Source: Saxibacter everestensis (GTDB lineage Bacteria; Actinomycetota; Actinomycetes; Actinomycetales; Brevibacteriaceae). Taken from it: a stretch of 64,000 nt of DNA. This document shows, one piece after another, positions 38,238 through 57,984 of the stretch. Each line of letters begins with the position of its first letter. Within the stretch, counting starts at the first letter, position 1. The translations under genes and the position numbers were made by a program. The stretch covers positions 1,269,856 through 1,333,855 of the forward strand of contig NZ_CP090958.1 of assembly GCF_025787225.1 (NCBI RefSeq). The letters are read 5' to 3'. Below the pieces are notes generated by a model. The model did no database searches. It saw only the letters and a list, made by a program, of their open reading frames with translations, and was not told where the DNA came from.

Positions 38238-38332
38238 GTTCATAGCCTGACACAGCCTGCGTGGCTCCGCGCAGGCCGGTGTTACTGTGCGCAATATTCG
38301 CGTCTTGGTTAAGAACCGGTAACATTTATGCA

Positions 38333-39322
38333 ATGAATATTCCGCCGCCGCCCGCAGTCCCGCCACGGATCCCGGGTGACGACGAGGAGAATGACGGTGC
38401 CTCGCTGACCGGGGAAATCTTTGCTTCTCGTTCCGATCGACCCGAAGGCCAGGACCTGTTCTCCGCCAGCGACACCGTCGACCTGCATCGGCAGAATCAG
38501 CAATTGGCAGCCCAGTATTGGGCGCCGACCCAGGTTCAGCGGACGGTCTCTCCTTCCGTAGCCAGCCCGATGCCGGACGCCTCGTCGGGGGCGCAGCCCG
38601 GGCTCCAGCACACTCATGTTCTGCCGGCCGAGCCCGTCGGGCAACCCGGGCAGCACCGGTACCCGGAAACAACGCAATATCCGGTCAATGAATATCCGGC
38701 GGCCCGGCTACCGGTGAGTCAGCCCCGGCGTCCGCAGAAGGGCGCGCAGAGTGCTGCGCCGAGCCGGCCGGGCGACCAGCTGAAAGCCAAACGGCGCGGA
38801 TCGATGTTCGTGCTCTTTGGCGGCGTCGCGCTATTTGCCCTGCTGATCGGTGCGCTGATCGGGATGGCCGCGGCTCCGTCGTCCGACCGGACCGCGAACA
38901 CCGGCTCGAACACGCAGGCCGCGCGGGAGAGTTCGCCAGGTTCGGAGTCCGAGGCGGGAAGTGGCTCGGGACCGGACGGCCAGGCGGAGCGGTTCACGTC
39001 GCCGTCAGGCAACATCAGCTGCCAGATATCCCAGGACGGCAGTGCCCGTTGCGACATCAGGGATGCGTCGTTCGATCCGCCCGAGAAGCCGGCCGATTGT
39101 TCCGGCGCATTCGGAAAGTCGATCACAGCGGCGTCGAACACGGTGCAATTCACCTGTGTGACCGACCCCGTCGACGGTTCCGATGCGCCAGAGCTGGGCT
39201 ATGGCCAGAAGAAGTCGGTCAAGGGTGTGACTTGTTCCAGCGCGAAGACCGGGATGACCTGCACGTCCGATGCCACCGGACGTGGTTTCACCCTGGCCAA
39301 ACAGAAGTACGAGATCTTTTAG
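38333..39322 (+). CDS. Membrane protein with extracytoplasmic SPSGNI domain (DUF6636-like)
   Basis: 329-residue protein. Residues 1-145 are a Pro/Gln-rich disordered cytosolic region, ~150-175 a transmembrane helix after KAKRRGS, then a Ser/Gly linker. The outer C-terminal domain of ~95 residues begins [22 protein letters not shown] and has six cysteines probably in disulfides. That motif resembles actinobacterial DUF6636 proteins. Function unknown. The ATG at 38333 is the first in frame; an ATG five bases earlier gives only a two-codon frame. Confidence 0.7.
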
Positions 39323-39390
39323 CTGAGGGCTGAGGGCTGAGGGCCGCGGCGGCCCGGCGCGTTCGTGACCGGGTTCCGGCTGGAACGAAC
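39322..39390 (+). repeat. GCTGAGG triplet and hairpins upstream of leuA
   Basis: Three exact copies of the heptamer GCTGAGG (39322-39342) run into the GC hairpin GGGCCGC/GCGGCCC (39341-39355). A second stem follows, GTTCG (39361) with CGAAC (39386) enclosing GTTCC/GGAAC. They follow the stop codon of the upstream gene and may terminate it. Confidence 0.45.
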
Positions 39391-39404
39391 ATCCCACCAT
39401 GTAG

Positions 39405-39540
39405 TACCGTGGGTCTCATGCATTGGCAGCAACTCCTCCTTCGTTGCCGCGGCGGGGACCTCTAAGAGGCCGCATCCCTGTCGCGGAGTTTGTGCTGTCC
39501 GGTCAAGTCCCACGTACAAATTTTAGACAACGAGGATCCA
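39405..39540 (+). promoter_or_regulatory. leuA leader region (probable leucine attenuator)
   Basis: A candidate -10 (TACCGT, 39405-39410) lies 7 bp before a Leu-rich 15-codon leader peptide. The stop codon sits inside the short hairpin CCTCT-A-AGAGG (39459-39469). GGGAC (39455-39459) can also pair with GTCCC (39507-39511) just ahead of leuA, giving mutually exclusive folds. Ribosome stalling at the Leu codons would select between them. Confidence 0.6.
39418..39465 (+). CDS. leuL: leuA leader peptide
   Basis: The 15-codon frame encodes MHWQQLLLRCRGGDL, with three consecutive leucine codons (CTC CTC CTT, 39433-39441) and a terminal fourth. It ends 75 bp before leuA. It has no Shine-Dalgarno and appears leaderless. 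Leader-peptide control of leuA is known in actinobacteria, and this fits that pattern; expression is inferred. Confidence 0.7.
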   Translation: MHWQQLLLRCRGGDL

Positions 39541-41319
39541 ATGCCACGCTCAACGAGCAACAATCAACAGCCGTGCGGAATGCCGATCCATAAGTACCGG
39601 CCTTTTCATACCCACGTCGACGCCGATCTGCCGGACCGCACCTGGCCGTCGAAACGGATCGAGACGGCTCCCCGCTGGCTCACCACCGACCTGCGTGATG
39701 GCAATCAGGCACTCATCGACCCGATGACTCCCGCGCGCAAGCTGCGGATGTACGACCTGTTGATCGACATGGGCTACAAGGAAATCGAGGTGGGTTTCCC
39801 CGCTGCCAGCCAGGTCGACTTCGACTTCATCCGGCAGCTGATCGAGGGGGATCGGGTCCCGGACGACGTGCGGATTTCGGTCCTGACCCAAGCCCGCGAG
39901 GACCTGATCGAGCGCACAGTTCAATCGCTTGAGGGTGCCAAGAACGCCACTGTGCATATGTACAACGCGGCCGCCCCTGTCTTCCGCAAGGTCGTATTCG
40001 GCTTCGATGGCGACGGGCGGGCGGAATGCCGTAATATCGCGGTCCAGGGCACCCAGGCAGTGATGAAATACGCCTCCGAGTACCTGCCGGGAACCAACTT
40101 CGGCTATGAGTATTCGCCCGAGATCTTCATGGACACCGAGCGGGACTTTGCGCTCGAGATCGTCGGCGCCGTGCTGGACACCTGGGGGCCTGCCGCCGAT
40201 CGGGAAACCGTGATCAACCTGCCGTGCACTGTCGAGCGGTCCACCCCGAATGTCTACGCCGACCAGATCGAGTGGATGAGCCGGAACATGCCGTACCGCG
40301 ACGATGTCGCGCTGTCGGTGCACACCCACAACGACCGGGGCACAGCCGTCGCCTCCGCCGAACTGGCCGTTATGGCCGGGGCGGACCGGGTGGAAGGCTG
40401 CCTGTTCGGCAATGGCGAGCGGACCGGAAACGTCGACCTGGTGACGCTCGGACTGAATCTGTACAGCCAGGGCATCGACCCGCAGATCGACTTCTCCGAC
40501 ATCGACGAGATAGTTCGCACCGTCACGTACTGCAACCAGATCGGCGTGCACGAGCGGCATCCCTACGGCGGAGACCTGGTCTACACCTCGTTCTCCGGTT
40601 CGCACCAGGACGCGATCAAGAAGGCTTTCGACGACCGGGAACGCCGCGCCGCCGACGAGGGCATCAGCGTCGACGACTTCGAATGGCGAGTACCGTATCT
40701 GCCGATCGACCCGAAGGATGTCGGCCGCAGCTACGAGGCAGTAATCAGGGTCAACTCGCAATCCGGCAAGGGCGGAGTCTCGTACCTGCTGAAGAGCGAG
40801 TACCAGTTGGACCTGCCGCGCAGGCTGCAGGTTGAGTTCTCCCAGGTTGTGCAGCGGCAGACCGAATCCGAGGGCGGCGAGATGTCAGCGGCCGCGCTCT
40901 GGCGGATCTTCACCGACGAGTACCTGCCGGCGGAAGAGGGCGACACCTGGGGTCACTACGCGCTGCGCGGTGTGCGGACCGAATCCGGCATCAGCGATGC
41001 CGGTGAGGACGCCAGTCCACGGCACAGCGAGTTGCTCCAGGCGGCACTCACCGTCGATGGCGAGGATGTCACTGTCGAAGGTCGCGGCAACGGACCGCTC
41101 GCGGCGCTGGTAGGAATTTTCTCCGAGCAGTTCGATGTTGACCTGCGAGTCCAGGACTACGTGGAGCACGCGATGGGGGCAGGTGGCGACGCCGAGGCTG
41201 CCGCGTACGTTGAATGCGCCATCGGCGACCGGGTGCTCTGGGGGGTCGGTATGGATTCCAACATCACCACCGCCTCGCTCAAGGCGGTTATCTCCGCAGT
41301 CAACCGCTATATGCGCTGA
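39541..41319 (+). CDS. leuA: 2-isopropylmalate synthase
   Basis: 592-residue enzyme joining acetyl-CoA and 2-oxoisovalerate in the first committed step of leucine synthesis. It is the long actinobacterial form (LeuA type 2): TIM barrel with TTDLRDGNQALIDPM (metal-binding Asp), SVHTHNDRGTAVASAELA (metal histidines) and GCLFGNGERTGNVDL. A C-terminal leucine-sensing regulatory domain runs from about residue 450. ATG 39541 has GAGG upstream and lies behind the leader peptide. Confidence 0.95.
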   Translation: MPRSTSNNQQPCGMPIHKYRPFHTHVDADLPDRTWPSKRIETAPRWLTTDLRDGNQALIDPMTPARKLRMYDLLIDMGYKEIEVGFPAASQVDFDFIRQLIEGDRVPDDVRISVLTQAREDLIERTVQSLEGAKNATVHMYNAAAPVFRKVVFGFDGDGRAECRNIAVQGTQAVMKYASEYLPGTNFGYEYSPEIFMDTERDFALEIVGAVLDTWGPAADRETVINLPCTVERSTPNVYADQIEWMSRNMPYRDDVALSVHTHNDRGTAVASAELAVMAGADRVEGCLFGNGERTGNVDLVTLGLNLYSQGIDPQIDFSDIDEIVRTVTYCNQIGVHERHPYGGDLVYTSFSGSHQDAIKKAFDDRERRAADEGISVDDFEWRVPYLPIDPKDVGRSYEAVIRVNSQSGKGGVSYLLKSEYQLDLPRRLQVEFSQVVQRQTESEGGEMSAAALWRIFTDEYLPAEEGDTWGHYALRGVRTESGISDAGEDASPRHSELLQAALTVDGEDVTVEGRGNGPLAALVGIFSEQFDVDLRVQDYVEHAMGAGGDAEAAAYVECAIGDRVLWGVGMDSNITTASLKAVISAVNRYMR

Positions 41320-57438: not shown

Positions 57439-57984
57439 TCCCCTGTAGCTCAGTTGGCAGAGCATTCGACTGTTAATCGAAGGGTCGCTGGTTCGAGCCC
57501 AGCCGGGGGAGCAGTAGAAGGGCCTCTGACCTGCAGGAATGCAGGTCAGAGGCCCTTCATCTTTCGGGTGTGCATCCGGCGCCCGGGCCCGCCGTCGGTA
57601 TCCGTCGCCGTCGCCGAATATGAAGTGCTCCGCGTGTGCGACTGCCTTTTTAAAACCATCGTTTCGTAGCGCAACCTGGACCTCATCGGCCTGCACGCCC
57701 AGGTCGATGTACTGCGTGTACCCGGGGCGAAGAATCCAGACACCCTCGGCCGGCGGCAGGTAGAACACAGCGAAGGACCGATGGCCCTCCTGGTCTTCCC
57801 ATACCGGAACCACCGCGACCGCGGCACCGGTGTCGACGTTGATCCATTGCGCGCGGGGCCGCGGCTGATCCTCGTCGGGCACCGCCGGATCGAGGAACGG
57901 TGCCGAACCCTTACCCCAGTGCTGTTCATAGCGCTGGTGGAAGATTGGAAACAGGGTCGCGTCGTACCGGCGCCAGCTCGTCAT
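57409..57984 (-). CDS. Hypothetical protein whose frame runs through the antisense of tRNA-Asn
   Basis: 191-codon frame starting at ATG 57984 with AAGGAGG upstream. Residues 1-130 look like a real soluble protein (MTSWRRYDATLFPIFHQRYE, VPVWEDQEGHRSFAVFYLPP). The last ~50 codons are the reverse of the tRNA terminator and of tRNA-Asn itself and are unlikely to be native sequence. The normal stop was probably lost. It follows a truncated hsp20, so both damaged ends may stem from rearrangement next to the tRNA. No family recognised. Confidence 0.55.
   Translation of the reverse strand: MTSWRRYDATLFPIFHQRYEQHWGKGSAPFLDPAVPDEDQPRPRAQWINVDTGAAVAVVPVWEDQEGHRSFAVFYLPPAEGVWILRPGYTQYIDLGVQADEVQVALRNDGFKKAVAHAEHFIFGDGDGYRRRARAPDAHPKDEGPLTCIPAGQRPFYCSPGWARTSDPSINSRMLCQLSYRGSRRENTSKD
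57439..57511 (+). tRNA. tRNA-Asn (GTT)
   Basis: A full cloverleaf can be drawn: acceptor TCCCCTG/CGGGGGA, D-loop AGCTCAGTTGGCAGAGC, anticodon stem TTCGA/TCGAA with loop CTGTTAA (anticodon GTT) and T-loop GGTTCGAGCC. The discriminator is G; CCA is not encoded. A strong terminator follows. Confidence 0.97.
57518..57557 (+). terminator. Terminator of tRNA-Asn
   Basis: A perfect 18-bp stem (57518-57535 with 57540-57557) has a GGAA loop and is followed by CATCTTTC. It lies 6 bp after the tRNA. Confidence 0.88.

Follow-up and report, generated by a model that had tools for sequence, protein, structure and literature searches.

The leuA gene of Saxibacter everestensis lies within the 64,000-nucleotide stretch of DNA analysed here (the window) and is preceded by a very short, leucine-rich reading frame. 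This arrangement raises the questions of whether translation of the frame could sense leucine supply, how it might act on leuA, and whether it is peculiar to this genome.

The leuA leader and its predicted RNA folds

The frame singled out by the first-pass annotation, 15 codons with three consecutive Leu codons, is exactly present on the plus strand at 39418-39465 (ATG CAT TGG CAG CAA CTC CTC CTT CGT TGC CGC GGC GGG GAC CTC TAA), with 75 bp between the end of its stop codon and the leuA ATG at 39541. Its Leu codons form a run at 39433-39441, with one more at 39460-39462. The product of the downstream gene is 2-isopropylmalate synthase, with HMGL-like, IPMS_D2 and LeuA_dimer domains. The features of the locus, with those of the RNA predicted from base pairing, are as follows:

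39381-39386, plus strand: weak -35 candidate, TGGAAC
39405-39410, plus strand: -10 promoter element TACCGT (TAnnnT), 7 nt 5' of the leader ATG
39418-39465, plus strand: leader ORF encoding MHWQQLLLRCRGGDL and a stop, probably leaderless, with a predicted transcription start at 39417-39418
39433-39441, plus strand: putative core sensing codons CTC CTC CTT (Leu-Leu-Leu), in part also the strand that pairs with the Shine-Dalgarno (SD) sequence
39439-39446, plus strand: 5' strand of the base stem, CUUCGUUG, which with a bulge reaches UCC at 39437 and pairs with the leuA SD strand
39447-39458, plus strand: 5' arm of the P1 hairpin, CCGCGGCGGGGA, its pairs kept with compensatory changes
39459-39469, plus strand: conserved stop-codon hairpin CCUC-UAA-GAGG within the P1 loop
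39468-39472, plus strand: 5' strand of the pseudoknot, GGCCG, in the P1 loop, whose complementarity to the downstream strand covaries
39475-39486, plus strand: 3' arm of the P1 hairpin, UCCCUGUCGCGG
39500-39504, plus strand: 3' strand of the pseudoknot, CGGUC
39528-39536, plus strand: 3' strand of the base stem, CAACGAGGA, including the leuA SD GAGGA at 39532-39536
39541-41319, plus strand: leuA, 2-isopropylmalate synthase, 592 aa

The neighbouring gene at 38261-39322 (plus strand), which ends about 80 bp 5' of the leuA promoter, encodes an uncharacterised, apparently membrane-anchored protein, and recO- and uppS-like genes lie 3' of leuA from 41423.

Comparison across 191 elements bears out the proposal that leuA is preceded by a leucine leader peptide: the Leu frame is kept in 99% of them, ending within the loop of P1, while the other two frames do so in 4% and 0%. 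In most of these elements the leader start has a TAnnnT hexamer 6-7 nt to its 5' side (a spacing of 6 nt in 61 and of 7 nt in 78), and few have a spacing of more than 10 nt. Since this spacing peaks so sharply, the transcripts are probably leaderless, and that of the window probably begins at the leader ATG. The -10 element therefore points to a start at 39417-39418 rather than near 39411, where the first-pass annotation had placed it.

The 150-nt region of the window folds at z -2.7 relative to shuffles. Each of the 11 pairs of P1 is retained in 87-92 of 92 copies, and compensatory changes occur, for example from G-C to A-T. The hairpin that had been noted over the leader stop codon, 4 bp between CCUC (39459-39462) and GAGG (39466-39469), is both present and conserved, with a mean of -7.3 kcal/mol versus -3.6 kcal/mol in shuffles. 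As this hairpin and the pseudoknot have bases in common, the two are mutually exclusive. The longer-range helices were evaluated in a way that needs no hand-picked alignment: for each genome, the duplex energy of its two strands was set against the energies obtained with mismatched partners. The codon run paired with the SD more stably in its own genome (-13.2 versus -11.6 kcal/mol; z -6.2), as did the P1 loop with the downstream strand that forms the pseudoknot (-15.5 versus -14.2 kcal/mol; z -4.8). These permutation z-scores carry no correction for phylogeny, and the contribution of shared ancestry and base composition is given by control pairs with unrelated regions, which reached z -2.8 at most and were exceeded by both helices. 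In the window, the base stem CUUCGUUG/CAACGAGG joins the leucine codons to the SD through 8 bp without interruption. Neither this pairing nor the pseudoknot had been noticed in the first-pass annotation. No terminator-like site was found in 39330-39700 of the window.

The LEU element and its spread in the order

An element of this kind has been described. In 2005, Seliverstov et al. (PMC1262725) reported, upstream of actinobacterial leuA, a LEU element composed of a leucine leader frame, a hairpin with a pseudoknot, and a base stem formed by leucine codons and the leuA SD. The window copy shares with it the leader ORF with its Leu run, the pseudoknot, the alternative hairpin, the base stem, the downstream leuA and the lack of a terminator, and we found no structural difference between them; the alternative hairpin was equated with the stop hairpin CCUC-UAA-GAGG from the description given in the text of that report. 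Further, a Streptomyces-like copy of the element encodes exactly the LeuL1 peptide of S. lividans, MRFGLLLLSCRGEGL. As the leader, hairpin, pseudoknot and base stem match, and a related copy encodes the LeuL1 peptide, the window feature can be identified as the LEU element that belongs to leuA in this genome. It is ordinary in itself and, contrary to the first-pass annotation, not specific to this genome. Short Leu-rich peptides before leuA have likewise been reported for S. lividans, where leuL1 is described as transcribed leaderless and lacking a terminator (PMC8079986), for C. glutamicum (cg4015; PMC4046766) and for C. diphtheriae (leu leader; PMC5784534). In their accounts of these leaders, which belong to other genomes, the three sources treat them as peptides and do not cover the wider family. 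What goes beyond PMC1262725 is the leaderless spacing across 191 copies, a preference for rare codons, and copies at other genes with target-matched codons; it is this extension of the family that is novel.

We aligned leuA upstream regions and built a covariance model from 35 training sequences, the window among them. In this 4.05-Mb genome the model gave one strong match (E 1.7e-11, 68.9 bits; next best 0.35) and no second LEU element. Within the order, 254 of 297 genomes, from 83 of 95 genera, have a match, and the matches in genomes outside the training set provide independent support for the profile. Weak, chance-like matches at 19 loci, mostly in coding regions, were omitted from the counts. 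The model found no element in some mostly small-genome members of the order, namely one family and parts of three others. LEU elements of Sinomonas, Nesterenkonia, Enteractinococcus and Yaniella have a much longer P1 apical loop. No Rfam family matched the element at the gathering score or at E 10, including the T-box and Leu_leader, the leader of the enterobacterial leu operon. The sole Rfam match at the gathering score in the window is a tRNA gene at 57439-57511 (plus strand).

Copies ahead of other genes and their codons

Many genomes contain two or three strong matches to the covariance model, which was trained on leuA copies only and is therefore biased against finds at other genes. Beyond the first leuA, the downstream genes are of four kinds: leuC, a second leuA (leuA2), a micro-ORF followed by leuB, and an orphan gene for a LeuA regulatory domain. 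The leuC class occurs in the family that includes Microbacterium (leader of Microbacterium sp. AK031: MRRVFLLLSGRDETSN), where elements with LLL leaders stand directly 5' of leuC at seven loci in Microbacterium and its relatives. At five loci, a second LeuA paralogue has a LEU element of its own; the C-terminal domain of the one copy of this paralogue that was tested did not reach the LeuA_dimer threshold. Leaders of the micro-ORF/leuB class mix Val, Leu and Ile (MARQLVILSSRGEFR, MTRRVVLLIPGRGEVR, MRHALILRCRGGA). In the orphan-domain class, the leaders read Leu-Val-Val (MKRVLVVHRRSGV) and precede a free-standing protein similar to the allosteric domain of LeuA (PF08502). Of four such LeuA_dimer-like proteins tested, two matched PF08502 (E 2e-6 and 8e-6), while Pfam gave no name to the other two. 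This combination was seen in a mycobacteria-like family at seven loci and others besides, and a few elements of the class, including two with MKRVRVVSRRSGA, have Val-only leaders. We found no description of the leuC, leuB or LeuA_dimer copies in the open-licence literature searched.

The microprotein between the Val/Ile/Leu leader element and leuB is conserved (..ARQALQESMDLRD..) and was seen in many families, at 53 loci. Its consensus is MxEEAxxARQALQESMDLRDQGHxDx and it is mostly 20-41 aa long. In 22 copies, conservation at third codon positions was 78%, versus 95-96% at the first two, a pattern like that of a coding frame. Of 148 genomes of the class, 39 gave matches to a profile of the micro-ORF, weak ones in some cases; this genome gave none. 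Among 30 micro-ORF loci that were fetched, 16 had a LEU-like element, which lay ahead of the micro-ORF/leuB region at 15 and ahead of leuA at one; at 12 of the 15 the leader was clear, with abundant Val, Ile and Leu. One family has a terminator-like hairpin between micro-ORF and leuB, with leuB preceded by its own promoter-like hexamer; at other loci leuB directly follows the micro-ORF. Neither NCBIfam nor Pfam has a name for the microprotein. The extension of the family draws attention to unannotated genes that may be controlled by branched-chain amino acids, this leuB-adjacent microprotein foremost among them.

The identity of the core codons follows the downstream gene. Where the target is leuA (355/360, from 120 elements), leuA2 (51/51) or leuC (15/15), 421 of 426 core codons in all encode Leu, whereas 77 of 141 encode Val or Ile where it is the micro-ORF/leuB unit or the orphan LeuA_dimer gene; the former class has 33 Leu, 23 Ile and 7 Val (n = 63), the latter 45 Val, 26 Leu and 2 Ile (n = 78). 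The same contrast exists within single genomes, namely G751, G771, G121 and Actinomadura sp. NBRC 104425. G751 alone has ALLLG before leuA, GLLLG before leuA2 and LLVVH before the dimer gene. The background for codon choice was taken from long ORFs in the window and at the fetched loci. In leuA elements of these high-GC genomes, CTT makes up 47% of core Leu codons, versus 1.2% in neighbouring genes. Similarly, GTA provides 34 of 45 core Val codons (3.5% of Val in neighbouring genes) and ATT 14 of 23 core Ile codons (0.8% of Ile). As CTT accounts for 10.9% of Leu codons in the window, the rare-codon effect is milder there. Pairing with the SD partly forces the core codons to be pyrimidine-rich, but it does not so force GTA.

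Taken with the shared scaffold, these codon swaps make it quite likely that the LEU element forms one branch within a set of reprogrammable actinobacterial sensors. In such sensors a leaderless ORF would sit in a conserved hairpin-pseudoknot, and evolution would have rewritten three or four mostly rare codons according to the gene controlled: Leu where this is leuA, leuA2 or leuC, a Val/Leu/Ile mixture for the microprotein and leuB, and Leu-Val-Val where it encodes a free-standing LeuA regulatory domain. The codons of the leuA branch are also its anti-SD strand.

Leader translation as the probable sensor

For leuA itself, we think it fairly likely that the LEU element, a leaderless leucine leader ORF with a hairpin-pseudoknot and a base stem reaching the SD, senses charged tRNA-Leu through translation of the leader. 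Sequence and comparison show the components of this predicted device, namely the frame with its leucine codons, the spacing of the -10 element, the P1 and stop-codon hairpins, the pseudoknot and the base stem, and show that it lacks an intrinsic terminator; the steps that would connect them are as follows. When leucine is plentiful, the ribosome would clear the run, leaving the codon strand (39437-39446) to pair with the SD, and leuA translation would be low. When leucine is scarce, a ribosome stalled on CTC/CTT would cover the codon strand, since the run is the anti-SD strand in the leuA branch, and the SD would become more accessible. Exchange between the stop hairpin and the pseudoknot probably tunes the refolding. 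Folding calculations, with a model that omits pseudoknots, lend partial support to SD release by a stalled ribosome: the SD core had a mean unpaired probability of about 0.02 in the window leader and about 0.25 when a ribosome block covered 39418-39450, while with a simulated ribosome at the stop codon the SD was still paired. Pairing between codons and SD is weak in the leuB and LeuA_dimer classes (P 0.054 and 0.029), so their output step may differ.

Leader translation might instead act on transcription, with Rho terminating the transcript in the leader region unless the ribosome stalls. Rho-dependent termination has been suggested for the mycobacterial cys leaders, which likewise have no terminators (PMC1262725), and the window leader also contains no intrinsic terminator, yet the conserved pairing is directed at the leuA SD, which a purely transcriptional device would not need. 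We consider this reading unlikely for the element as a whole, although a Rho-dependent arm may accompany control at the SD.

The proposal made in 2005 was that the element binds a protein, the M. leprae DEAD-box protein ML1624 being the candidate, and that the leader frame is of little importance. Its basis was a phylogenetic pattern together with codon mutations that failed to act as expected; in the account given in PMC1262725, mutations of the S. coelicolor leuA codons did not act as in classical attenuation, and leader translation was set aside because of these odd results. Strong conservation of P1 and the pseudoknot would suit a binding site. Such a site would not, however, predict pathway-matched changes from Leu to Val or Ile, nor does it fit the near-universal retention of the frame and the leaderless spacing. 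Because the codons double as the anti-SD strand, the old mutations would have altered both functions together, which offers an explanation for their odd results. As codon identity tracks the target gene while the scaffold stays constant, sensing by leader translation is favoured over protein binding, which we regard as quite improbable. The mechanism of the LEU element has been at issue since 2005, and these natural codon swaps argue for codon sensing.

A third fold, the pairing of GGGAC (39455-39459) with GUCCC (39507-39511) that the first-pass annotation put forward as the alternative structure, is very unlikely to have that role. Both strings are present and the corresponding segments gave z -3.2, but this is barely above the -2.8 reached by controls, the exact partner occurs in only 8 of 89 relatives, and GGGA also belongs to P1; across the related elements, the Leu codons are kept and this pairing is not clearly conserved. 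We therefore rejected it as the main alternative fold. The cognate codons and competing hairpins of the leader might suggest classical trp-type attenuation, in which a terminator hairpin alternates with an antiterminator. This reading is exceedingly improbable and largely refuted, since no intrinsic terminator was found in 39330-39700 and, according to the description of leuL1 in PMC8079986, S. lividans leuA lacks one too.

Two other systems resemble the window element in part. The Corynebacterium ilvB-II motif, or ilvBNC attenuator (PMC10272879), is also a branched-chain amino acid uORF controlling a biosynthetic operon; its terminator consists of a hairpin and a U tract, whereas the window leader has no terminator but an SD-directed stem. 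The mycobacterial polycysteine uORFs (Canestrari 2020), as cited in PMC13236596, differ from the window leader in their amino acid, cysteine, and in the genes they precede, and are likewise leaderless short ORFs that sense an amino acid.
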